Shown piece by piece: positions 17,885 to 34,952 of a DNA stretch of 64,000 bases. The DNA comes from Candidatus Rokuibacteriota bacterium. Its GTDB lineage: Bacteria > Methylomirabilota > Methylomirabilia > Rokubacteriales > CSP1-6. The notes under the pieces are model-generated. The model saw only the letters and a program-made list of their open reading frames with translations. It had not been told where the DNA came from and made no database searches. The position numbers and the translations under genes are program-made. The number at the start of each line of letters is the position of its first letter. Positions within the stretch are counted from its first letter, which is position 1. The stretch is taken from contig QHRU01000057.1 in the NCBI GenBank assembly GCA_003220225.1, forward strand, positions 1-64,000. The letters are read 5' to 3'.

Positions 17885-18952
17885 ATGGACATTCCACGCA
17901 CGATGAAGGCGACGGTCCTCGTCGCGCCGCACCGCTTCGAGCTGCAGGAGCGCCCGGTGCCGGTGCCCGGCGACGAAGACGTCCTCGTCCGCGTGCGCGC
18001 CTGCGGCGTCTGAGGTACGGATCTGAAGCTCATCCACACCGGCATGCCCCAGATGCCGCCCTACGGCGAGTTCATCTTCGGGCACGAATACGCGGGCGAC
18101 GTGGTCGCGGTGGGCCGGACGGTGGACGAGTTTCGGGTCGGCGACCGGGTGGTCGTCGAGGCGCACATGGGCTGCCGCCGCTGCGAGAACTGCATCCGCG
18201 GGCTCTACACCGCATGCCTGAACTACGGCAACCGCACGCGCGGGCATCGCGCGAACGGGTTCACCACCAACGGCGGGCTCGCCGAGTACGCGGTGAACCA
18301 CGTCAACACGCTGTATCGCATTCCCGAGGGCGTCTCCTACGAGGAGGCGACGGTGGTGATGACCTCCGGCAGCCCGCTCTTCGGCCTGGAGAACGCGGGC
18401 GGCTACTTCGCGGGCGAGACGGTGGCCGTGCTCGGCCCCGGCCCGATCGGGTTGATGGCGATCCAGCTCGTGAAGGCTCTCGGCGCCACTCGCGTGATCC
18501 TCACGGGCACGCGCGCCTCGCGCCTGGCCATGGGGCGCCAGCTCGGCGCCGACGTCGTCGTCAACAGCCGCGAGCAGGAGCCCATCGCGGCCGTGATGGG
18601 CGCGACCGGAGGCAAGGGCGCCGACCTCGTCATCGACTGCGCGGGCGGCGACGAGACGTTCGACCAGTCGCTGAAGATGGTGAAGTCGGGCGGCAAGGTG
18701 CTGCTGGTCGCCTTCTATCACGGGCCGGTCACCGCGGACGTGAGCCACGCCGTGCGGCGCAACGTCACCATCTACACCGAGCGCGGTGAGGGCGGCACCA
18801 GCGTCGGCCGCGCGCTCGCGCTGCTGGCCGCGGGCCGCCTCACCGCCAAGCCGCTCATCACCCACCAGTTCCCGCTCAGCCGCGTCCACGAGGCGTTCGA
18901 GGTGCTGGAGAAGCGGATCGGCGATCCGCTCAAGGTCGTCCTGAACCCGTGA
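17885..18952 (+). CDS. Zinc-dependent alcohol dehydrogenase (MDR family), candidate selenoprotein with in-frame UGA
   Basis: Reading from ATG 17885 (AAAGGGGG upstream) gives 355 codons with one in-frame TGA at 18011-18013, codon 43. The flanking residues are VRVRACGV-U-GTDLKLIH, so UGA replaces the Cys of the invariant GVCGTD motif, the catalytic zinc ligand. Everything else is intact: GHEYAG (second ligand region), the structural zinc set CRRCENC...C, and the Rossmann motif LGPGPIGLMAIQ. The paralogue at 35822-36916 has Cys there. A hairpin of SECIS geometry follows (18040-18058). The known family reaction is NAD(P)-dependent oxidation of an alcohol; the substrate is unknown. First gene of the operon to 30121. 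Alternative: a nonsense mutation or base error. Confidence 0.8.
18040..18058 (+). promoter_or_regulatory. Candidate bacterial SECIS hairpin in the alcohol dehydrogenase gene
   Basis: CGGCAT (18040-18045) pairs with ATGCCG (18053-18058) around the loop GCCCCAG. There are 32 nt between UGA and loop, the stem has 6 bp, and the first loop base is G. These fit the published bacterial SECIS consensus as I remember it (16-37 nt, at least 4 bp, G in the first two loop positions). The loop lacks the GU seen in E. coli, so this is the weakest of the three. Confidence 0.5.
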
Positions 18953-19893
18953 GGCATCGGCTCGCGTTCGCGGTCGCGCTGGTGCTCGCGGCGGCGGCAC
19001 CGGCCTCCGCGTTTCCCGACAAGCCGCTCGAGCTGACGGTGCTCTTCGGCGCCGGCAGCGCGGCCGATCTCCTCGCGCGCAAGCTGGCCGAGCTGGCCGG
19101 CCGCGACCTCGGCCAGCCCGTGACCGTCGTCAACCGCACCGGCGCCGGCGGCGCGCTCGGCTACACGTACGTGAAGGGCCAGCCGGCCGACGGCCACGCG
19201 CTGGTGTGGAACTCCAACAGCATCAGCACCGCCTACCACGCCGGCAACATGAAGCTCGACCACACCGCGTTCGCCGGCGTGGCCGCGCTCACCAGCGAGC
19301 CGGTCTCGCTCGCCGTGAAGGCCGACGCGCCGTGGAAGGACGCGCGCGAGCTGCTCGCGCACGCGAGGGCAAACCCCGGCCACGTGCGCCTCGGCAACTC
19401 CGGACGCGGCAGCTTCACGCATCTCGTCGCCGTCGCCCTCGAGAACCGCGCCGGGGTCAAGCTCACCCACGTCCCGTTCGGCCGCGAGCTGGCGGTGACG
19501 ACGGTGCTCGGCGACAAGATCGAGGCGAGCGTGCAGCTGCCGGCGGAGATCATGGCGCAGGTCACCGGCCGCCAGGTCCGCGTGCTCGCCGTCAGCGGCG
19601 ACACGCGGCTGGTCTCCCTGCCCGACGCGCCGACGCTCAGGGAGGCCGGCGTCGATCTCACCATGACGCTCTGGCGCGGGGTCGCCGTGCCCAAGGGCAC
19701 GCCCGAGACGGCGATCGCGCGGCTCGAGCGCGCGTTCACTCAGGCCGCCAACGGCCCGGAGTTCCGGGACTTCGCCGCCCGCATGGGCGCCGTCGTCGAC
19801 GTGCGGGGGGCGAAGGACTTCGACGCGTTCATGGCGCGCGACGACCGCGAGATCGCGGCGCTGATGGAGCAGATCGGCCTCAGGAAGCAGTAG
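18949..19893 (+). CDS. tctC: Tripartite tricarboxylate transporter substrate-binding protein (TctC/Bug family)
   Basis: A 314-residue periplasmic protein from GTG 18949, overlapping the dehydrogenase stop as GTGA. Signal peptide at about 1-21 (ASAFPDKPLE follows). It has the Bug fold features: PDKPLELTVLFGAGSAADLLAR, VVNRTGAGGALGYTYV, the PGHVRLGNSGRGS loop and the hinge LPDAPTLREAGVDL. Ligands of this family are small carboxylates (citrate-like, tartrate, aromatic acids) caught with high affinity. TctB and TctA follow, so the importer is complete. Confidence 0.93.
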   Translation: MRHRLAFAVALVLAAAAPASAFPDKPLELTVLFGAGSAADLLARKLAELAGRDLGQPVTVVNRTGAGGALGYTYVKGQPADGHALVWNSNSISTAYHAGNMKLDHTAFAGVAALTSEPVSLAVKADAPWKDARELLAHARANPGHVRLGNSGRGSFTHLVAVALENRAGVKLTHVPFGRELAVTTVLGDKIEASVQLPAEIMAQVTGRQVRVLAVSGDTRLVSLPDAPTLREAGVDLTMTLWRGVAVPKGTPETAIARLERAFTQAANGPEFRDFAARMGAVVDVRGAKDFDAFMARDDREIAALMEQIGLRKQ

Positions 19894-19895
19894 CC

Positions 19896-20372
19896 GTGGG
19901 CCGTGATCGCTGGAGCGCGGCCGGCCTCGCCCTCCTCGCGATCGGCTACCTGTTCGCGGCTCGGCGCTACCCGCTCGACACGCTGACCACGCCGGGCCCG
20001 GGGATCGCGCCACTCGGCTCGGGGCTCGCGTTGCTCGCCCTCGCCGTGTGGCTGTTTATTGTAGCGGGGTCCGTGAGGCCGGCTCATGCCGCAGGTGGCC
20101 TGCCCGAGATCCGCGTGGCTCCGACATGCCCGACCGAATCGGCTCCGCAACGCCCGGGCTCTCGCACGGCGTTGCTCATGTGCGGTGCGCTCGTGCTCTA
20201 TGCGGGGCTGCTGCCGCGGCTCGGCTTCCTCGGCTCGTCGGTCGCGCTCGTCGTCGTCTCGTCGCGGCTCATGGGACTGGAGGGCTGGTGGCGACCGGCG
20301 GTGCTCGCGCTCGGCGTCACCGGCGTCGCCTATCTGCTCTTCGCGCGCTGGCTCGGTGTCCCGCTGCCGTGA
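19896..20372 (+). CDS. tctB: Tripartite tricarboxylate transporter small membrane subunit (TctB family)
   Basis: A 158-residue protein from GTG 19896, two bases after the TctC stop. About four membrane segments: residues 6-24, 40-60, 88-110 and 130-150, with a stretch of about 25 less hydrophobic residues between segments 2 and 3. The pattern AIGYLFAARRYPLDTLTTPGP-GIAPL is typical of TctB N-termini. Its stop overlaps the TctA start (GTGA). The role of this subunit is structural or coupling and is not understood in detail. Confidence 0.85.
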   Translation: MGRDRWSAAGLALLAIGYLFAARRYPLDTLTTPGPGIAPLGSGLALLALAVWLFIVAGSVRPAHAAGGLPEIRVAPTCPTESAPQRPGSRTALLMCGALVLYAGLLPRLGFLGSSVALVVVSSRLMGLEGWWRPAVLALGVTGVAYLLFARWLGVPLP

Positions 20373-21847
20373 GCGATCTGTTCGTCGCCCTCACGCCGCC
20401 GAATCTCCTGGCCTGCTTCATCGGCACCGTGCTCGGCACCGTCGTCGGCGTGCTCCCCGGGCTCGGCCCGGCCGCCGCGATGGCGCTCGTGCTGCCGCTG
20501 ACGATCAAGCTCGGGCCGACCGCGGGACTCATCATGCTGGCGGGCATCTACTACGGCGCGATGTATGGCGGCTCGACGACCTCCATCCTCGTCAACGTCC
20601 CGGGCGAGGCGGCCAGCGTGGTGACCACGATCGACGGGTATCGCCTCGCCCGCAGGGGACGCGCGGGGGCGGCGCTGGCGGTGGCCGCCATCGCCTCGTT
20701 CGTCGCCGGCACCTTCAGCGTCGTCGCGCTCCAGCTCGCCGCGCCGCTCGTGGCGCGCGCCGCGCTGGCCTTCGGCCCCGCGGAGTATTTCGCGTTCGCG
20801 CTGCTCGGCGTCGTGCTGCTGGCCAACCTCACCGGCGGCTCACGCGCGAAGTCGCTGGCCATGGTCGTCCTCGGCATCATGCTCTCGACGGTCGGCATGG
20901 ACCCGCTCGGTGGCACCGTGCGCTTCACCTTCGACCTCGCGGGAGCGCAGGCCGGGCTCAGCTTCGTCGCCGTCACGGCCGGCTTGTTCGGCGTGGCCGA
21001 GGTCCTCGCCACGATGGCGGACCCCGCGTCGACGACGCCCGTCGCCCGCGTCCGATTCCGCGAGCTCTATCCGAACCGCGAGGAGCTGCGGCGCTCGGTG
21101 CCGCCGATGCTGCGCGGCACCGTGCTCGGGTTCCTCGTCGGTCTCATCCCCGGCCCCGCCGCCACCATCGCGTCCTTCGTCTCCTACGGCGTGGAGAAGA
21201 AGATCAGCAGGCACCGCGACGAGCTCGGCACCGGCGCCATCGAGGGCGTGGCCGGGCCCGAGGCCGCCAACAACGCGGCGGCGGGCGGCGGCATGATCCC
21301 GCTCCTCTCGCTGGGCCTGCCCTTCACGCCGTCCACCGCGGTGCTCCTGAGCGGCATGCTCCTCATGAACGTCACGCCGGGGCCGTTTCTGCTGCGCGAT
21401 CACCCGCAAGTCTTCTGGGGCGTGATCGGGTCCTTCTACGTCGGCAACGTGATGCTGCTCGTGCTCAACCTGCCGCTGGTCGGCGTCTTCGCGCGCGTGG
21501 CGACGGTTCCGCCGCGCTTTCTCATGCCCGGCGTGCTCGTGCTCTGCGTGGTCGCCGCGTACGCCGACAACAACAACCTCTTCGACGTCTGGGTGGTCGT
21601 CGGCGCCGGCATCATCGGCTGGGCGATGCGGGCGCTCGGCTTCAACCCCGCGCCGCTCGTGCTCGGCCTGGTGCTGGGCCCCGTGCTCGAGCGCGCGTTC
21701 TTGCAGGCGCTCACGATCGCGCGCGGCGAGGTCTCTGGCCTCTGGGCCTCCGGCCCCGCCGCCGTCATGCTGGCCGCGGCGGCCGTGGCGTTCGTGGCGC
21801 CGGCCGTCCTGGCCCTGGCCCGCCGGTCCGCCGCCGACCCGGTATAG
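20369..21847 (+). CDS. tctA: Tripartite tricarboxylate transporter large permease (TctA family)
   Basis: A 492-residue membrane protein from GTG 20369 (SDLFVALTPPNLLACF). It carries the two TctA signature regions GTVVGVLPGLGPAAAMA (about 20-36) and GLIPGPAATIASFVSYGVEKK (about 256-276), and about 11-12 hydrophobic segments. The segment GIYYGAMYGGSTTSILVNVPGE lies in the first half. It imports the carboxylate delivered by TctC using the ion gradient. Thirteen bases separate it from the RidA-type gene. Confidence 0.95.
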   Translation: MSDLFVALTPPNLLACFIGTVLGTVVGVLPGLGPAAAMALVLPLTIKLGPTAGLIMLAGIYYGAMYGGSTTSILVNVPGEAASVVTTIDGYRLARRGRAGAALAVAAIASFVAGTFSVVALQLAAPLVARAALAFGPAEYFAFALLGVVLLANLTGGSRAKSLAMVVLGIMLSTVGMDPLGGTVRFTFDLAGAQAGLSFVAVTAGLFGVAEVLATMADPASTTPVARVRFRELYPNREELRRSVPPMLRGTVLGFLVGLIPGPAATIASFVSYGVEKKISRHRDELGTGAIEGVAGPEAANNAAAGGGMIPLLSLGLPFTPSTAVLLSGMLLMNVTPGPFLLRDHPQVFWGVIGSFYVGNVMLLVLNLPLVGVFARVATVPPRFLMPGVLVLCVVAAYADNNNLFDVWVVVGAGIIGWAMRALGFNPAPLVLGLVLGPVLERAFLQALTIARGEVSGLWASGPAAVMLAAAAVAFVAPAVLALARRSAADPV

Positions 21848-21860
21848 AAAGGAGACACAG

Positions 21861-22250
21861 ATGAATCGTCGGCTCATCAGCTCCGGCTCGTCGTTCGAGA
21901 GAGAGATCGGCTATTCGCGGGCGGTCGTCGATGGGGAGTGGGTCTTCGTCTCGGGCACGACGGGGTTCGACTATCAGTCGATGAGAATTTCGGAAAACCT
22001 GCTCGAGCAAGCCGAGCAGTGTTTGCGGAATATCACGTCTGCCCTCGAGCAGGCCGGGACCGGTCTCCGGGACGTGGTCCGGGTCACGTACATTCTTCCA
22101 AAGGCCGAGGACTTCCCTCAATGCTGGCCGATCCTCAAGAAATACTTCGGCGATGTGCGACCCGCCGCGACGATGATCTCGGCGGGATTGGCCGACCCCC
22201 GGATACGAATCGAAATCGAGGTGACGGCACGCCGGCAGGCCGACCGTTGA
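21861..22250 (+). CDS. RidA family protein (YjgF/YER057c/UK114)
   Basis: A 129-residue protein with AAGGAG 8 bases before ATG 21861. Family features are the strand VFVSGTTGFDY, the helix LEQAEQCLRNITSALEQAGTGLRDVVRVTYIL and the end PAATMISAGLADPRIRIEIEVTA. RidA proper uses an Arg near position 105 to hydrolyse reactive enamines; here R115/R117 lie in ADPRIRIEIE, so this resembles a Rid subgroup with altered specificity. In this operon it probably deaminates an imine/enamine intermediate or binds a catabolite (inference). Confidence 0.9.
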   Translation: MNRRLISSGSSFEREIGYSRAVVDGEWVFVSGTTGFDYQSMRISENLLEQAEQCLRNITSALEQAGTGLRDVVRVTYILPKAEDFPQCWPILKKYFGDVRPAATMISAGLADPRIRIEIEVTARRQADR

Positions 22251-22296: not shown

Positions 22297-23988
22297 ATGA
22301 CGACCCCCGAGCCCGTCTACGACGTCGTGTGGCCGCTCGCCCCCTCCGCCGCGCCGGCGGGATCGCTCGCCGCGCGCTCCGCCGACCTCAGCGGCAAGAC
22401 CGTCGGCGAGCTGTGGGACTACCTCTTCAAGGGCGAGGAGATGTTCCCGCTCATCCGGAAGGCGCTCGAGACGCGCTATCCCGGCATCCGCTTCGTCGAG
22501 TTCGAGACGTTCGGCTCGATCCACGGCCGCGACGAGAAGGAGCTGGCGGCGACGCTGCCCGGGCTCCTGCGCAAGCACGGCTGCGACGCGGTGATCTCCG
22601 CCGTCGGCGCCTGAGGGTCGTGCACGCCCGCCGTGCTGCGGGCCGCCGCGATCGCCGAGAGGGCCGGAGTGCCGAGCGTGTCCATCGTCACCACGCCGTT
22701 CATGCAGCAGGCGGGCGTCGTGTCCAGGGGCGTCGGGCTGCCGTCGCTGCCGATCGCCGAGTATCCCGGCGTGCCGATGACCGACGGCTCGGACGCCGTC
22801 GCGAGGAAGGTCGAAGCGCTGCTGCCCCAGCTCGTCGCGGGACTCGCCGGGGCGCGCGATACCGGGCGTCCGACGGCGGCCGAGCCCGGACCGCGCGACG
22901 TCGTGCATCGCGGCACGCTCGACGAGATCCAGGAGCTCTTCCACAAGAACCTCTGGAGTGACGGCCTGCCCGTGATCCCGCCCACGCTCGCGCGCGTGGA
23001 GCGCTTCCTCGCTCACACGCGGCGACAGCCGGATGAGGTCATCGGCCGCCTGCTGCCGGAGAACCGCGCCGCCACCGTGTGGAGCATCGCGGTCAACGCC
23101 GTGATGGCGGGCTGCCGTCCCGAGTACATGCCGGTGCTGCTCGCGATCGTCGAGGCGATCGCCGAGCCGATCTTCCGCGTGGAGGACGCGGGCTCGACGC
23201 CGGGCTGGGAGCCGCTCGTCATCGTGAGCGGACCGATCGCGACCCGTCTCGACCTCAACCACGGTCAGGGCGTGATGCGCGTCGGCCGCCAGGCCAACTC
23301 GAGCCTCGGCCGCTTCCTGCGCCTCTATCTGCGCAACGTCGCCGGGCTGCGCATCCCGCCGGGCGCGGGCGACAAGGGCAGCATCGCGGGCTCGTTCAAC
23401 GTGGCGCTCGCCGAGGACGAAGACGCCGCGGCCGCGCTGGGCTGGTCCACGTTCGGCGTCGACCAGGGCTTCACGCGCGCGGACAGCGTGGTCACCGTGC
23501 AGAGCGTGGTGAGCATCAGCCCGCCGATCTACTCGGCGGGCACGCGCGCGCTCGATCACGTCCGCATCCTGGCCGAGGTGTTCGGCGGCGCGTGCGGCTA
23601 CTGGTCGTCGATCGGCATGAAGTACGCGCGCTGGGAGCCGCTGCTCGTCCTCGGCCCGTCGATCGCGCGCGTCATCGCCGAGGACGGCTGGTCGAAGGAC
23701 GACCTGCGCCGCTATCTGCACGAGCACGTCACGATCACGGCGCGGGAGGCCGAGACGTACGCGCTCCAGGTCGGCGCGACCGCCTACACGCTGGAGGCGC
23801 ACGTGAAGGCCGGGGTGCTGCCGGCGGCGTACGCGACGTCGAGCGATCCCGAGCGTCCGGTGCCGGTGTTCGTGCAGCCCGAGAAGATCGGCATCCTCGT
23901 CGCCGGCGATGCCGGCCGCAATCAATCCAAGGGCTACGTGAACAACCACATCCAGGGTGGCCGCGTGAGCAAGAGGCTGAGCGCGTGA
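22297..23988 (+). CDS. UGSC-motif (seleno)protein fused to an uncharacterised C-terminal domain
   Basis: One frame of 564 codons from ATG 22297, interrupted only by TGA 22612-22614 (codon 106). Around it the protein reads VISAVGA-U-GSCTPAVLRAAA, the U-G-S-C motif that names the known UGSC (seleno)protein family. U106 and C109 would form a selenenylsulfide-type U-x-x-C pair in an Asp/Glu-racemase-like fold (IAERAGVPSVSIVTTPF follows). After about residue 210 comes a second region of 350 residues starting near LFHKNLWSDGLPVIPPT that I know only from uncharacterised proteins. It ends with NNHIQGGRVSK. A SECIS-like hairpin follows the UGA. Read conventionally, the gene would be split into 22297-22614 and 22633-23988. 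Function unknown; redox or C-S/C-N chemistry is a guess. Confidence 0.88.
22626..22643 (+). promoter_or_regulatory. Candidate bacterial SECIS hairpin in the UGSC gene
   Basis: GCCCGC (22626-22631) pairs perfectly with GCGGGC (22638-22643) around CGTGCT. The loop begins 17 nt after UGA and has G in its second position, followed by U as in SelB-recognised loops. Together with the UGSC protein motif this is strong evidence for recoding. Confidence 0.7.
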
Positions 23989-24455
23989 GCGTCCGCTGGG
24001 CGCTCACGTTGGTGCTGGTGGCCGGCGCCGCCGAGGCCGGAAGCTCGGTCGACACGCCGGGCCACGCCTCCACCGCCGTCCGGTGCGGCGAGCAGACGCT
24101 GGCGGCCTGCACGCAGCGGCGCGTCGAAGCGCTGCAGCGCCTCGGGGCCACCCTCAAGCGTGCCGCCGGCCAGCAGCCGGCCAAGCCGCCGACCGATCCG
24201 AAAGCGCGCGGAGAGCTCGCGCGCTACGACCGCTGGCTCACGCTGCAGAGCGAGCGCGCCGAGAAGCTGGTGGCCGAGGGCCGGCGGGCGCTCGGCGCCG
24301 GCAAGGACGCGCCGGATCGGCAGATGTCGTTCAACCTGCAGTACCTGCAGCTGCAGAGCCAGATGCAGAACGAGAACCACGCCTACACGGCGGTCTCGAA
24401 CATCATGAAGACCAAGCACGACACGGTGAAGAACTCCATCTCGAACATCCGGTGA
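23985..24455 (+). CDS. Small secreted protein of unknown function, helical
   Basis: A 156-residue product from GTG 23985, in GTGA overlap with the UGSC gene. The first 18 residues (VRWALTLVLVAGAAEAGS) look like a signal peptide. The mature part begins with a probable disulfide (CGEQTLAAC) and is then almost wholly charged/polar helix; residues about 105-156 (MSFNLQYLQLQSQMQNE, VSNIMKTKHDTVKNSISNIR) have heptad-like spacing and may form a coiled coil. I do not recognise the family. Its position between a selenoprotein and a binding-protein gene suggests that it belongs to the same pathway, perhaps in the periplasm. Confidence 0.7.
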   Translation: MSVRWALTLVLVAGAAEAGSSVDTPGHASTAVRCGEQTLAACTQRRVEALQRLGATLKRAAGQQPAKPPTDPKARGELARYDRWLTLQSERAEKLVAEGRRALGAGKDAPDRQMSFNLQYLQLQSQMQNENHAYTAVSNIMKTKHDTVKNSISNIR

Positions 24456-24457
24456 CC

Positions 24458-25990
24458 ATGACCATGACCCTCGTGAGACTGCTCGTGATCGCCGTCGTCA
24501 TTGTTCTCGCCGCGCCCGCCGGTCACGCCGTCGCCGCCGAGGGCGAGCTGCGCTACGGCCTGCACGTCACGCTGGCCGCCAAGTGGCTGGACCCCGCGGA
24601 GACGGAGGCGTTCACCACGCCGTTCATGGTGCTCTACGCCGTCCACGACGCGATGGTGAAGCCGATGCCCGCCGGCATGAGCACGCCGAGCCTGGCCGAG
24701 TCGTGGAGCGAGGCCAGGGATCACCTCAGCTACACGTTCACCCTGCGCAGGAACGCGAAGTTCCACGACGGCTCGCCGGTCACCGCCGAGGACGTGAAGT
24801 TCTCGTTCGAGCGATACAAAGGCGCCTCCGCGACGCTGCTCAAGGAAAAGGTCAAGGAGGTCCAGGTCGTCTCGCCGACGCAGGTCCGCTTCGTCCTCAA
24901 GGAGCCGTGGCCCGACTTCATGCTCTTCTACGGCACCACCGCGTCCGGCGCCGGCTGGATCGTGCCGAAGAAGTACGTCGAGAAGGTCGGCGAGGACGGC
25001 TTCAAGAAGGCGCCGATCGGCGCCGGACCCTACCGCGTCGTGTCCTTCAACCCCGGCGTGGAGATCGTCCTCGAGGCCTTCGACGGCTACTGGCGCAAGG
25101 TGCCGAACATCAGGCGCCTGGTGATGCGCACGATGACCGAGGAGACCACGCGGGCCGCCGCGCTGAAGCGGGGCGAGGTGGATCTCGCCTATCTGTTCGC
25201 GGGGCCCGTCGCCGAGGAGCTGCGCAAGACGCCCGGCATCCGGTTGGAGGCACCGCTGCTGACCGGCGCGTTCTGGCTCGAGCTGCCCGAGCAGTGGGAC
25301 CCGAAATCGCCGTGGCACGATCGCCGGGTGCGCCTGGCCGCCAGCCATGCCATCGACCGGCAGGCGATCAACCAGGCCGAGACGCTCGGTTTCTCGCGCC
25401 TCACCGGCAGCATCGTTCCGCGCATCTTCCAGTTCGCGATCGCCATGGAGCCGCCCGCCTACGATCCGGCGCGGGCCAGGAAGCTCCTCGCGGACGCCGG
25501 CTACCCCAACGGCTTCGACGCCGGCGACTTCTATCCGTTCCCGCCGTACAACTCCATGGGCGAGGCGATCCTGGGCTACTTCCAGGCCGTCGGCATCCGG
25601 AGCCGCCTGCGCACGATGGAGCGCGCGACCTACTTCACGACGTGGCGCGAGAAGAAGCTGCACGGCGTGATCCTGGTCGTCACCTCCGTCATGGGCAACG
25701 CCGCCACCCGGCTGGAGCCGTACGCGACGAAGAACGGTATCTACGCGTACGGCTCGCTGCCCGAGATGGACGACCTCTTCGCCCGCCAGGCCCGCGAGCT
25801 GGACCCGAAGAAGCGCGAGGCGCTCGTGCACCGGATGCAGACGATCATGACCGAGCACGTCATGAACGTGCCCATCTACGACCTGGCGTTCATCTGGGGC
25901 GTCGGACCCCGCGTCGAGGTGAGCGGGGCCAACCTCATTCCGGGCTTCCCCTACTCGGCGCCCTTCGAGGATCTGAAAGTCAAGAGGTGA
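24458..25990 (+). CDS. Peptide-type ABC transporter substrate-binding protein without its own permease
   Basis: A 510-residue SBP_bac_5 protein from ATG 24458, with another ATG two codons later. Signal peptide 1-28 (AGHAVAAEGE). It has FHDGSPVTAEDVKFSFERYKG, PDFMLFYGT, PKKYVEKVGEDGFKK and DRRVRLAASHAIDRQAIN. It is strikingly similar in segment order and wording to the binding protein at 7016-8551, which belongs to the Dpp-type importer. No permease or ATPase is nearby, so it probably docks to that importer. Coupled to the next gene by GTGA. Confidence 0.92.
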   Translation: MTMTLVRLLVIAVVIVLAAPAGHAVAAEGELRYGLHVTLAAKWLDPAETEAFTTPFMVLYAVHDAMVKPMPAGMSTPSLAESWSEARDHLSYTFTLRRNAKFHDGSPVTAEDVKFSFERYKGASATLLKEKVKEVQVVSPTQVRFVLKEPWPDFMLFYGTTASGAGWIVPKKYVEKVGEDGFKKAPIGAGPYRVVSFNPGVEIVLEAFDGYWRKVPNIRRLVMRTMTEETTRAAALKRGEVDLAYLFAGPVAEELRKTPGIRLEAPLLTGAFWLELPEQWDPKSPWHDRRVRLAASHAIDRQAINQAETLGFSRLTGSIVPRIFQFAIAMEPPAYDPARARKLLADAGYPNGFDAGDFYPFPPYNSMGEAILGYFQAVGIRSRLRTMERATYFTTWREKKLHGVILVVTSVMGNAATRLEPYATKNGIYAYGSLPEMDDLFARQARELDPKKREALVHRMQTIMTEHVMNVPIYDLAFIWGVGPRVEVSGANLIPGFPYSAPFEDLKVKR

Positions 25991-28152
25991 GCTACTCGCT
26001 CGGGATCGACATCGGCGGCACGTTCACCGACATCGTCGTCTACGACCACGCGCGCGGGCGCCAGCTGAACCGCAAGGTCCTCACGACCCACGACGACCCC
26101 GCCCGCGCCGTCGCCGCGGGCGTCGAAGGCCTGCTGCGCCAGCATCGCCTGCCCGCGCGCGACTTCACGCGGGTCGTGCACGCCACCACGCTCTTCACCA
26201 ACGCGCTGATCGAGCGCGGCGGCGCGGTGACGGGGCTCATCACCACCGCCGGCTTCGGCGACACGCTGGAGATTGGCCGCGAGCGGAAGTTCGAGCTGTA
26301 CGACCTCAACATCGTCAAGCCCGAGCCGCTCGTGCCGCGCAATCGGCGCGTGGAGGTACGTGAGCGGCTGCGCGCCGACGGCTCGGTGGAGCGGCGGCTC
26401 GACCCGCGCGAGGTCGCCGCGGGAGCCAAGACGCTCGTCGACGCGGGCGTGACGTCGATCGCCATCGTCTTCCTGCACGCCTACGCGAACGGCAAGCACG
26501 AGGCGGAGGCCGCGCGCGCCATCGCCCGACGGCACCGCGGGATCGCCGTCACCACGTCGCACGAGGTCGCGCCCGAGATCCGCGAGTACGAGCGCGCGTC
26601 GACGACGGTCGCCAACGCCTACATCAAGCCGCTGGCGCGCCAGTATCTCGACGCGATGGCCCGGCGGGTGGCCGGTCTCGGCATCCCCGCGCCGCTGCTC
26701 CTGATGCTCTCGAGCGGCGGTCTCACCCACGTCGCCGAGGCCGAGCGGACGCCGGTCCAGATGCTCGAGTCGGGCCCGGCCGCCGGCGCGCTGGCCGCCG
26801 CGTTCTTCGGCCGCGAGGACAGCCGCGGCAACCTGCTCGCGTTCGACATGGGGGGCACGACCGCCAAGCTCTCGCTCGTGGACGGCGGCGAGCCGCTCAC
26901 CGCGTACGCGTTCGAGGCCGCGCGGCAGAAGCGTTTCATGGAGGGCAGCGGGCTGCCGATCCGCATCTCCACCATCGAGCTGATCGAGATCGGCGCCGGC
27001 GGCGGCTCCATCGCCTCCGTCGACGAGATCGGGCTGCTCAAGGTCGGCCCGCGCAGCGCGGGCTCGCACCCGGGCCCGGCGTCCTACGGCCTCGGCGGCA
27101 CAGAGCCCACGGTGACCGACGCGGACTTCCTGCTCGGCTATCTCAACCCCGACTACTTCGCCGGCGGCGAGGTCCGCGTGGACATGGCGGCGGCGCGCGC
27201 CGCGCTGGAGCGGCTCGCCGGGCGCGTGCGGCTGTCGCCCACGGACGTCGCGTGGGGCATCCACGACGTCGTCAACGAGAACATGGCGTCCGCCGCGCGC
27301 GTGCACATCGCCGAGCGCGGCCGCGATCCGCGCGACTATGCGCTGCTCTGCACAGGCGGCGCCGGGCCCGTGCACGCCTGGGGCGTCGCGCACAAGCTGG
27401 GGCTCCGGCAGGTGATCTGCCCTCCGGCGGCCGGCGTCGCCTCCGCGCTCGGCCTGCTCGTGGCGCCGGCGCGCGTGGATCGCGTGGCCACCGTCGGCAT
27501 CAGGCTCGATCGCGACAGCCCCGTCGCGCTGGAGAGGGCGTTCCGCCGGCTCGAGGACGAGGCGCGCGCGGTGATGGCCGACACGGGCCTGAAGCTGGAG
27601 TCGGCGACCGTGCGACGGCTGGCCGACGGCCGCTTCCTCGGCCAGGGCTTCGACCTCGTCGTCGACCTTCCCGACGGCCCCTACGGCGACGGCGAGGCGA
27701 GCCGGGAGCGGCTGACCGCGGCGTTCGAGACGGCGTACCGCGAGAAGTTCGCGCTCACGCCGCCCGACGTGCCGATCGAGTTCATCAACATCCGCGTCGC
27801 CGTCCGCGCGCCGGTCTCGGAGACCGCCATGGGGGAGTCCGAGGGGGGTCTCCCCCTCGGTCAAACAACTGGGCAGTCCATATCCGAGGGCGCAGAGACG
27901 GGCATGGCTCTCCCCCTCGCCCGGCACACCGACGTGGAGCCTGGCACGGCCGTGAAAGGTACACGCGCCGCGTACTTCCGCGAGAGCCACGGCTTCGTCG
28001 AGTCGACGGTCTACGACCGCGCGCGTCTGGCGCCCGGCGACGAAGTCCGCGGTCCCGCCGTGGTGGAAGAAGAAGGCTCGACGCTGGTGATCGGCCCCGG
28101 CGGAATCGCGCGCGTGGCGACGAGCGGCAATCTCGTGGTGACGCTGCCATGA
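25987..28152 (+). CDS. hyuA: Hydantoinase/oxoprolinase family protein, subunit A
   Basis: A 721-residue protein from GTG 25987 (SYSLGIDIGGTFTDIVVYD). It has the ASKHA-type phosphate motifs GIDIGGTFTD (6-15) and LAFDMGGTTAKLS (about 284-296), and GAGGGSIASVDE near 338. This is the ATP-using half of N-methylhydantoinase, acetone carboxylase-like or 5-oxoprolinase enzymes; the substrate cannot be told. At residues about 613-643 there is a glycine/serine-rich insertion, encoded by a hairpin-containing segment (27826-27915), that I do not expect in the family. ATGA coupling to subunit B. Confidence 0.93.
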   Translation: MSYSLGIDIGGTFTDIVVYDHARGRQLNRKVLTTHDDPARAVAAGVEGLLRQHRLPARDFTRVVHATTLFTNALIERGGAVTGLITTAGFGDTLEIGRERKFELYDLNIVKPEPLVPRNRRVEVRERLRADGSVERRLDPREVAAGAKTLVDAGVTSIAIVFLHAYANGKHEAEAARAIARRHRGIAVTTSHEVAPEIREYERASTTVANAYIKPLARQYLDAMARRVAGLGIPAPLLLMLSSGGLTHVAEAERTPVQMLESGPAAGALAAAFFGREDSRGNLLAFDMGGTTAKLSLVDGGEPLTAYAFEAARQKRFMEGSGLPIRISTIELIEIGAGGGSIASVDEIGLLKVGPRSAGSHPGPASYGLGGTEPTVTDADFLLGYLNPDYFAGGEVRVDMAAARAALERLAGRVRLSPTDVAWGIHDVVNENMASAARVHIAERGRDPRDYALLCTGGAGPVHAWGVAHKLGLRQVICPPAAGVASALGLLVAPARVDRVATVGIRLDRDSPVALERAFRRLEDEARAVMADTGLKLESATVRRLADGRFLGQGFDLVVDLPDGPYGDGEASRERLTAAFETAYREKFALTPPDVPIEFINIRVAVRAPVSETAMGESEGGLPLGQTTGQSISEGAETGMALPLARHTDVEPGTAVKGTRAAYFRESHGFVESTVYDRARLAPGDEVRGPAVVEEEGSTLVIGPGGIARVATSGNLVVTLP
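27826..27915. repeat. In-frame insertion with hairpin inside hyuA
   Basis: CCGAGGGGG (27839-27847) pairs with CCCCCTCGG (27852-27860) around GTCT, within a stretch that also contains a lower-GC part (TCAAACAACTGGGCAGTCCA, 27860-27880) and the non-preferred codon ATA. The 90 bases keep the reading frame and add about 30 residues to HyuA between the conserved VRAPVSE region and KGTRAAYF. It resembles a palindromic mobile repeat that landed in a permissive loop. I see no second copy in the window. Confidence 0.45.
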
Positions 28153-29783
28153 GCGCGCGGCTCGACGCGGTCACCCTCGAGGTCCTCTGGACGCGCGTCA
28201 TCTCGGTCGTCGACGAGGCGGCCAAGGCCATCGTGCGCACGTCCTTCTCGACGCTGTCCAACGAGGCGAACGACTTCGCGTGCGTGCTGACCGACGCGCG
28301 GGGGCGCGCGGTGGCCCAGAACAGCGGCTCGATCCCGTCGTTCATCGGCACCCTGCCCGCCACCGTGCGCCACTTCATCCGCGAGCTCGGCGCCGAGTCG
28401 ATGAAGCCGGGCGACGTGCTCATCACCAACGACGCCTGGCTGGGCACCGGCCACATGAGCGACGTCTCGGTGCTCAAGCCGATCTTCCACCGCGACCGCC
28501 TGGTGGCGTTCTCGGCGACGACCTCGCACATGCCCGACATCGGCGGGCGCATCCGCGCGATCGAGGCCCGCGAGATCTTCGAGGAGGGCCTGCACATCCC
28601 GCTGGCGCGGCTGGTCCGCGACGGCCGCGTGGACGACACGATGGTCGCCCTGATCCGCGCCAACGTGCGCACGCCGGATCAGACGATGGGCGACATCTGG
28701 GCGCAGGTCAGCGCCAACGAGCTGATGGAGCGCCGCGTGCGCGCGCTCATGGACGATTACGGCCTCGACAACCTCGAGGCGCTGGGCGACGAGCTGTTCT
28801 CGCGCTCGGAGCGCGCGATGCGCGAGGCGATCCGGGCCGTTCCCGACGGCACGTACCGTTACGGGTTCAGCACCGACGGCACCGGCATGCCGTTCGAGTT
28901 CAAGATCGCGCTGACCGTGAGGGGCGACGAGATCGTCGCCGACTACACGGGCAGCTCACCCCAGCAGCCGCGCGCCATCAACTGCGTGATGGCTTACACG
29001 TTCGCGATGACCGCCTACGCCGTGCGCTGCGTGCTGCTGCCCGGGCTGCCGAACAACGAGGGCATGTACCGCCCCGTCAAGGTCGAGGCGCCCGAGGGCT
29101 CGATCCTCAATCCGCGCTTCCCGGCCGCCGTCGTGAGCCGAGCCACGACCGGGCACTACGTGCCGGCGCTCGTGCTCGGCGCGCTCCACCGCGTGATCCC
29201 CGATCGCGTGATGGCCGGCGTCGGCTCGCCGCTCTGGGCGCTCAGCCAGTCGAGCACGCGAGAGGACGGCAAGCCCTACACGACCGTGCTGTTCTTCAAC
29301 GGCGGCATGGGGGCCACGCCGATCAAGGACGGCGAGAACGTGCTCTCGTGGCCCAGCAACATCTCCTCCACGCCGGTGGAGGTCGCCGAGCGCCAGAGCC
29401 CGCTCTTCTTCCACTACAAGCGCCTGCGCCCGGGCTCGGGCGGCGCCGGGCGCTTCCGCGGCGGCCTCGGCCAGGACATCCTGATCGAGAGCCGCTCGCC
29501 GCGCCCGATCGTGCTGAGCGTCATGGCCGAGCGCACGAAGTTCCCCGCCCCCGGCCTCGCCGGCGGCGCGCCCGGCGGCCTCGGCGACGTCCGCATCAAC
29601 GGCACGCGCATCGACAATCGCAAGCAACACGTGCTGGAGCGCGGCGACCGCGTGCTCGTGAGCACGCCGGGCGGCGGTGGCTACGGCCCGCGCGCCAGGC
29701 GCGACAAAACGCTCATCGCGCGGGATCGCGCGCTGGGCTACGTCGGCCGCGGCCGCCGAGCCGTGAAGGAGGAACGCCCGTGA
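28149..29783 (+). CDS. hyuB: Hydantoinase/oxoprolinase family protein, subunit B
   Basis: A 544-residue protein from ATG 28149 in ATGA overlap with hyuA. Features of the HyuB family are DAVTLEVLWTRVISVVDEAAKAIVRTSFS, ITNDAWLGTGHMSDV (about 96-110), TSHMPDIGGR (about 125-134) and the C-terminal GGLGQDI...STPGGGGYG glycine-rich end. Acts with HyuA on a cyclic amide, lactam or ketone in an ATP-dependent step. It is followed by an EthD gene overlapping its stop. Confidence 0.95.
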   Translation: MSARLDAVTLEVLWTRVISVVDEAAKAIVRTSFSTLSNEANDFACVLTDARGRAVAQNSGSIPSFIGTLPATVRHFIRELGAESMKPGDVLITNDAWLGTGHMSDVSVLKPIFHRDRLVAFSATTSHMPDIGGRIRAIEAREIFEEGLHIPLARLVRDGRVDDTMVALIRANVRTPDQTMGDIWAQVSANELMERRVRALMDDYGLDNLEALGDELFSRSERAMREAIRAVPDGTYRYGFSTDGTGMPFEFKIALTVRGDEIVADYTGSSPQQPRAINCVMAYTFAMTAYAVRCVLLPGLPNNEGMYRPVKVEAPEGSILNPRFPAAVVSRATTGHYVPALVLGALHRVIPDRVMAGVGSPLWALSQSSTREDGKPYTTVLFFNGGMGATPIKDGENVLSWPSNISSTPVEVAERQSPLFFHYKRLRPGSGGAGRFRGGLGQDILIESRSPRPIVLSVMAERTKFPAPGLAGGAPGGLGDVRINGTRIDNRKQHVLERGDRVLVSTPGGGGYGPRARRDKTLIARDRALGYVGRGRRAVKEERP

Positions 29784-34736: not shown

Positions 34737-34952
34737 TCAGTGCGCGCCGAGATCCGGGATGGAGAGCACGAGGTGGAGCGAGCCGCCCAGCTCGTTGAGC
34801 CGTCGTGGATCCCAGCGCACGAACGCCTCGCGCTCCTCGTCGGTCAGGTCGGCGGCGCGCACCGCGGCGGCGGGGTCGCTCCGGAACCGCTCGCGGAACG
34901 CGCGGTCCTTCTTGAGGCGATACAGCAGCACGTTGAGGTCGTAACGGCTCAC
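34737..34952 (-). CDS. LigA-type small subunit of extradiol dioxygenase
   Basis: A 71-residue protein from GTG 34952, overlapping the LigB stop as GTGA. It has the LigA-like helical pattern: SRYDLNVLLYRLKKDRAF, RSDPAAAVRAADLTDEER, ending in a Gly-rich tail. In protocatechuate 4,5-dioxygenase the alpha subunit caps the active site of the beta subunit. It is shorter than free-standing LigA (about 130-140 residues) and corresponds to the core LigA domain. Confidence 0.8.
   Translation of the reverse strand: MSRYDLNVLLYRLKKDRAFRERFRSDPAAAVRAADLTDEEREAFVRWDPRRLNELGGSLHLVLSIPDLGAH

Follow-up and report, generated by a model that had tools for sequence, protein, structure and literature searches.

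A single in-frame TGA interrupts an otherwise continuous forward-strand reading frame in the stretch of DNA analysed here (the window, 64,000 nucleotides), which raises the questions of whether this codon is read as selenocysteine (Sec) and what kind of protein would result. The window covers the initial 64 kb of C93, a contig in a genome of 6.03 Mb (167 contigs, 97% complete), and its nearest named relatives are Candidatus Rokuibacteriota MAGs. Translation from the ATG at 22297 gives 563 residues and a terminal TGA at 23986–23988, making 564 codons, with codon 106 as the sole in-frame TGA in the context VGA-U-GSCTPAV. Standard gene calling breaks the frame in two, at 22297–22614 (105 aa) and 22633–23988 (451 aa). 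An initial annotation of this DNA had read the interrupted frame as a UGSC (seleno)protein followed by a perfect SECIS-like hairpin; its frame, its A-U-G-S-C-T-P motif and its stem and loop letters are all exact as described. The features of the locus are collected in the table.

Table. Features of the UGSC locus and its surroundings (window coordinates)
Feature	Position	Strand	Remarks
Zinc alcohol-dehydrogenase-like gene	17903–18952	+	In-frame TGA 18011–18013 (ACGV-U-GTD); heads probable operon
TctC, tripartite tricarboxylate transporter binding protein	18949–19893	+	
TctB	19896–20372	+	
TctA	20369–21847	+	
RidA-like (Ribonuc_L-PSP) protein	21861–22250	+	
Probable UGSC-family selenoprotein gene	22297–23988	+	563 aa, Sec106; UGSC domain fused to unnamed C-terminal domain
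UGSC domain (PF24696)	22324–22845	+	Pfam match; AlphaFold2 pLDDT 90.9, alternating beta/alpha layers
UGA codon 106, predicted to be read as selenocysteine	22612–22614	+	UxxC motif with Cys109; no variation at U106 or C109 across 25 aligned homologues
Bacterial SECIS-like hairpin, 6 bp stem, loop CGUGCU	22626–22643	+	bSECIS rules, codon freezing, compensatory changes in sister clades
C-terminal partner domain, about residues 192–563	22870–23985	+	Separate neighbouring gene at other loci; no Pfam/NCBIfam family
156 aa protein	23985–24455	+	Apparent signal peptide, no family; overlaps UGSC stop
Family 5 extracellular solute-binding protein	24458–25990	+	
Hydantoinase A / caprolactamase-alpha-like	25987–28152	+	
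Hydantoinase B / caprolactamase-beta-like	28149–29783	+	

The family search proposed in the initial annotation returned a clear match to Pfam PF24696 over residues 10–183 (E 2e-28; 100.1 bits, cut-off 25). By contrast, the protein missed the cut-off of the NCBIfam UGSC equivalog NF041046 (54.1 versus 125 bits, aligned over residues 91–182) and is therefore a divergent UGSC member; the family assignment holds with the qualification that this is a divergent, fused representative. In the alignment around codon 106, also proposed in the initial annotation, 25 homologues keep UGA at this position, and neither U106 nor C109 varies among them. The TGA recurs at this position in rokubacterial orthologues (75–92% identity), in other genera (42–46%) and in an acidimicrobial MAG (41%). 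Homologues in Paracoccus and in betaproteobacterial and acidimicrobial MAGs carry TGA at the Sec site, and haloarchaeal, Roseovarius, Neorhizobium and Variovorax plasmid homologues have a Cys codon there (TGC or TGT). The genome itself encodes six UGSC domains, the window gene and five others, each with one in-frame TGA. Across the phylum, UGSC genes occur in 71 of 94 genomes, at 1–12 copies per genome having any, with exactly one TGA per gene among the matches listed.

Some of these relatives are of interest in their own right. Fused UGSC-partner homologues of Sporomusa termitida and Vibrio europaeus read GDMGTS or ADMGTS at the Sec/Cys site, placing Met there, and lie near aconitase X genes. 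On plasmid pFER4 of Paracoccus ferrooxidans, a TGA-containing UGSC gene is annotated as split hypothetical genes; selB is about 4 kb off, and selB and a cysteine desulfurase both fall within about 10 kb, making this a candidate plasmid-borne Sec island. In the Betaproteobacteria MAG RH-23may17-977 (5.7 Mb), UGSC genes number about 34, every one interrupted by a single in-frame TGA; most are accompanied by the partner domain, and their regions are rich in TctC genes. Co-assembly could account for part of this count.

The absence of a Sec pathway from the genome would have spoken against the selenoprotein assignment; instead, the genome encodes SelA (509 bits), SelB (372 bits), SelD (335 bits) and tRNA-Sec (69.7 bits). 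SelA, SelB and tRNA-Sec are clustered within 5 kb of one another on contig C5, and the selD gene carries an in-frame TGA of its own, indicative of a selenocysteine-containing SelD. As had been claimed, the window gene anchors Sec decoding in this genome, yet it does not thereby validate every in-frame TGA of the window. A minus-strand TGA at about 34737–34739, in frame with both a LigA-like ORF and the gene for a TAT-signal solute-binding protein, resembles a normal stop separating the two genes more than a Sec codon.

The hairpin that follows codon 106 consists of the stem halves GCCCGC (22626–22631) and GCGGGC (22638–22643) and the loop CGTGCT (22632–22637), with 17 nt between the UGA and the loop. 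Rules for bacterial SECIS elements (bSECIS) specify a loop of 3–9 nt, a stem of 4–16 bp, a spacing of 16–37 nt, a G within the first two loop positions and an MFE at or below −7.5 kcal/mol (PMC13188914); the window hairpin, with a loop of 6 nt, a stem of 6 bp, a spacing of 17 nt and a core of −11.2 kcal/mol, conforms to them. Taken singly, it is at chance level: the folding z-score is −0.33, and 38% of synonymous recodings drawn with rokubacterial codon usage fold equally well (P 0.38). We therefore rejected single-sequence hairpin statistics as evidence. An Rfam scan of the window returned nothing at the gathering level.

Comparison across relatives, on the other hand, indicates that the hairpin is real and under selection. 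A rule-conforming stem of at least 6 bp is present in 67 of 71 distinct UGSC contexts, compared with 10.8% of the 1,918 Cys codons taken from called genes, and two of the four contexts failing the stem test look like search-pattern artefacts. Within the window clade (10 genes), one codon is used throughout in only 7 of 94 conserved multi-codon amino-acid columns. Five of these seven frozen columns (T110, P111, A112, V113 and R115) are at the hairpin, with their third bases in stem or loop, and the codons of G107 and A116, which flank it, vary freely. The hypergeometric chance of freezing five of the six hairpin columns, calculated by hand, is about 2e-6. Sister clades place other sequences at the same position, namely GTCGTGG-AGTGT-CCACGAC and GTCGGGC-AGTGT-GCTCGAC; over 19 sequences in the sister register, every one of the 133 pair cells holds a standard pair, and in 12 of them both sides have changed. 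Slid or shuffled controls fall short of this pairing, and no shuffle equals it. The hairpin called perfect is thus exact in its sequence and significant comparatively, but not on its own.

Could codon 106 nevertheless be a real stop or an assembly error, leaving a 105-residue product or a broken pseudogene? The split made by standard gene calling and the insignificance of the hairpin taken alone are what one would then expect. However, the same TGA recurs in independent assemblies and genera at 41–92% identity, GC content at codon positions shows that coding signal runs on either side of it, relatives carry Cys at the site, and the genome has a complete Sec pathway, all of which makes this explanation very improbable. 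Residue 106 is almost certainly Sec, as judged from these comparisons. We put the probability that the gene encodes a genuine UGSC-family selenoprotein, Sec and family identity taken jointly, at about 0.88.

Beyond the UGSC domain, roughly 370 residues (about 192–563) match no Pfam or NCBIfam model. In Rokubacteria, haloarchaea, Roseovarius and Variovorax, the same partner domain is also found as a gene of its own beside UGSC genes that stand alone. It is fused to UGSC or lies at most 300 nt away on the same strand for all 46 of 46 rokubacterial and for 16 of 20 betaproteobacterial UGSC genes, the betaproteobacterial exceptions sitting at or near the end of the sequence piece examined. Because the pairing is constant, whether fused or adjacent, UGSC and its partner probably act together. 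PMC2398784 reports a fusion of UGSC to a domain termed Unknown_1, which may or may not equal the partner domain described here.

To place the UGSC domain structurally, we turned to AlphaFold2 models. The full-length model (pLDDT 85.7, pTM 0.88) gave no Foldseek match below E 1e-3. Over the searches with this model and with the UGSC domain, no specific structural relative emerged; the best value was E 7e-4 at TM 0.47, among generic flavodoxin/Rossmann folds. The model of the UGSC domain alone displays a regular alternation of strands and helices, in which Sec106 sits past the central strand 98–104 and ahead of helix 109–122. Its best 50 Foldseek matches are, by description, of flavodoxin, Rossmann or GTPase type, and none is thioredoxin-like. 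Sequence searches of the PDB with full-length and domain profiles produced chance-level matches only. As modelled, the UGSC domain is an alpha/beta domain of Rossmann- or flavodoxin-like type. A thioredoxin topology around the UxxC motif was considered and set aside, given the beta/alpha alternation and the flavodoxin/Rossmann-type matches of the predicted structure.

Profile comparison points to a more specific relationship, with GrdB, which is component B of glycine reductase, the selenium enzyme that cleaves glycine by reduction. With Sec masked, 104 columns of the UGSC profile can be aligned to the C-terminal part of GrdB, and Sec falls on Sec. The hhalign probability is 85.7, with a score of 47 and an E-value of 5.5e-6 that applies to one pairwise comparison; control scores were 13 for the reversed profile, 27 for the best of 150 shuffles and 28 for UGSC against GrdE. 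The similarity is confined to about 100 columns, and PF07355 (GrdB/PrdB) did not appear among direct Pfam matches at E up to 10, nor in a second search at E up to 1. From these profiles, UGSC looks like a distant relative of the C-terminal, Sec-bearing portion of GrdB and of its D-proline reductase equivalent PrdB. The partner domain, by the same kind of comparison, bears no resemblance to the pyruvoyl subunit GrdE (probability 0.2). No paper linking UGSC to GrdB was found in the literature; UGSC neighbourhoods may already figure in the selenoprotein-neighbourhood work of Haft and colleagues. In rokubacterial GrdB genes, too, the frame continues through a TGA (...TxTUGTCTRCGA...) with a hairpin immediately after it, suggestive of glycine-reductase-like systems in these soil bacteria.

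The surroundings of the gene offer some indication of function. The ten genes from the Sec-containing zinc alcohol-dehydrogenase-like (Sec-ADH) gene to hydantoinase B, including the UGSC gene and the small secreted protein that follows it, likely form one operon. Its order is kept in one congeneric genome, with one small gene exchanged, and not in other genera; because the operon is common only to that one congeneric genome, the link of the transporter to UGSC function is weak. Among Rokubacteria, TctC lies near UGSC only in the window-type operon. In the betaproteobacterial MAG, TctC genes number 3.1 per 16 kb in UGSC regions against 1.0 in a control of only 64 kb, and immediate same-strand adjacency of TctC to UGSC is at the level of random positions. 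Annotated plasmid relatives have carboxylate transport or CoA-transferase genes near the UGSC-partner genes. A trxB gene adjoins UGSC in Roseovarius THAF8 and is near it in Variovorax SRS16; none was found in 32 regions around rokubacterial UGSC genes. An amidase gene occurs in 12 of 32 rokubacterial UGSC regions and in 0 of 20 control regions.

The gene at the head of the operon deserves separate mention. In the CGxCGTD motif of its product, Sec stands where the second Cys would be, the residue that usually binds the catalytic zinc, and among its relatives TGA is found in nine rokubacterial genes (82–100% identity) and TGC in one (89%). The term 'alcohol dehydrogenase' is absent from the selenoprotein list of a 2026 review. 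This Sec-containing zinc ADH-like gene may represent a new selenoprotein family, which the work of Haft and colleagues on selenoprotein neighbourhoods may already treat.

How might the window protein work? At the level of sequence, the comparisons establish Sec decoding and the domain anatomy; the chemistry is proposed by analogy with the roles of GrdB and PrdB (PMC13188914). SelB bound to the hairpin just past codon 106 would deliver Sec-tRNA-Sec, giving a 563-residue protein whose active site would be Sec106-G-S-Cys109. The substrate, a small carboxylate or carbonyl compound brought in by the TctABC transporter of the operon, would be held by the partner domain. Attack by the selenolate of Sec106 would cleave or reduce a C-X bond, with Cys109 resolving the intermediate; a thiol donor such as thioredoxin would then re-reduce the selenenylsulfide. 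We consider such GrdB-like, thiol-fed reductive chemistry to stand slightly short of even odds. A small carboxylate is the likely substrate class, given that the operon contains TctABC, RidA and hydantoinase genes; this is the weak step of the proposal. No biochemistry on any UGSC protein was found in the literature.

Two other functions have to be weighed against this reductive scheme. UGSC could be a thioredoxin-like thiol:disulfide oxidoreductase whose Sec-x-x-Cys reduces disulfides of proteins or small molecules, or peroxides. The UxxC motif fits this idea, as do the trxB genes near UGSC at two plasmid loci, and a thioredoxin-like fold is called likely for UGSC in PMC2398784. Against it stand the predicted alternation of strands and helices, in which Sec follows a central strand, the lack of thioredoxin-like descriptions among the best 50 structural matches and the alignment of the UGSC profile to GrdB; in addition, the constant partner and the catabolic neighbourhoods better fit an enzyme acting on a metabolite. 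On balance we regard this function as improbable. A slightly better case, though still an unlikely one, can be made for UGSC and its partner as a non-redox isomerase, racemase or lyase in which Sec and Cys work together as nucleophiles or in acid-base catalysis. Catabolic neighbours, among them genes for CoA transferase, amidase, an isocitrate lyase-like protein and aconitase X, would suit such an enzyme, and the Sporomusa and Vibrio homologues with Met instead of Sec/Cys still keep the fused partner. Yet Sec is present in every rokubacterial copy among the matches listed, which would be costly unless selenol redox chemistry or nucleophilicity matters, and no Pfam racemase matched even at E up to 1.

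In a broader view, UGSC and its partner may make up a large branch of GrdB/PrdB-type selenol reductases that has so far gone unrecognised, and would then not be thioredoxin-like redox proteins. Such a branch would be at work mainly in bacteria of soil and water, some genomes holding dozens of paralogues, and each paralogue would serve a different imported carboxylate. We advance this broader view more tentatively than the chemistry itself. In the Global Ocean Sampling data UGSC ranked with the most abundant selenoprotein families, and in non-marine samples it was the one most used (PMC2398784). The numbers of UGSC genes, 1–12 in each rokubacterial genome having them and about 34 in one betaproteobacterial MAG, bear on why such bacteria keep selenocysteine. 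The constant partner and the GrdB relationship turn UGSC into a concrete, testable enzyme proposal, and both speak against the thioredoxin-like fold suggested in PMC2398784.

As a member of the UGSC family (PF24696/NF041046; PMC2398784, PMC13188914), which is already known, the window protein is ordinary; what is new here is the fusion to a partner, the GrdB link and the evidence that the hairpin is under selection. It shares with the family the U-G-S-C motif and a bSECIS-like hairpin after the UGA, and differs in its sub-cut-off NF041046 score and its fused partner of roughly 370 residues. With GrdB (PF07355) and PrdB, UGSC has in common a Sec that opens a UGxC-type motif and occupies the equivalent place in about 100 residues of homologous sequence, and with GrdB a hairpin directly after the UGA. 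GrdB, unlike UGSC, is about 440 aa long with an extra N-terminal region, and many copies have further Cys residues (UxxCxxC). Whereas GrdB and PrdB work with pyruvoyl partners, GrdE and PrdA, none such was recognised with UGSC, whose own partner domain is unlike GrdE.
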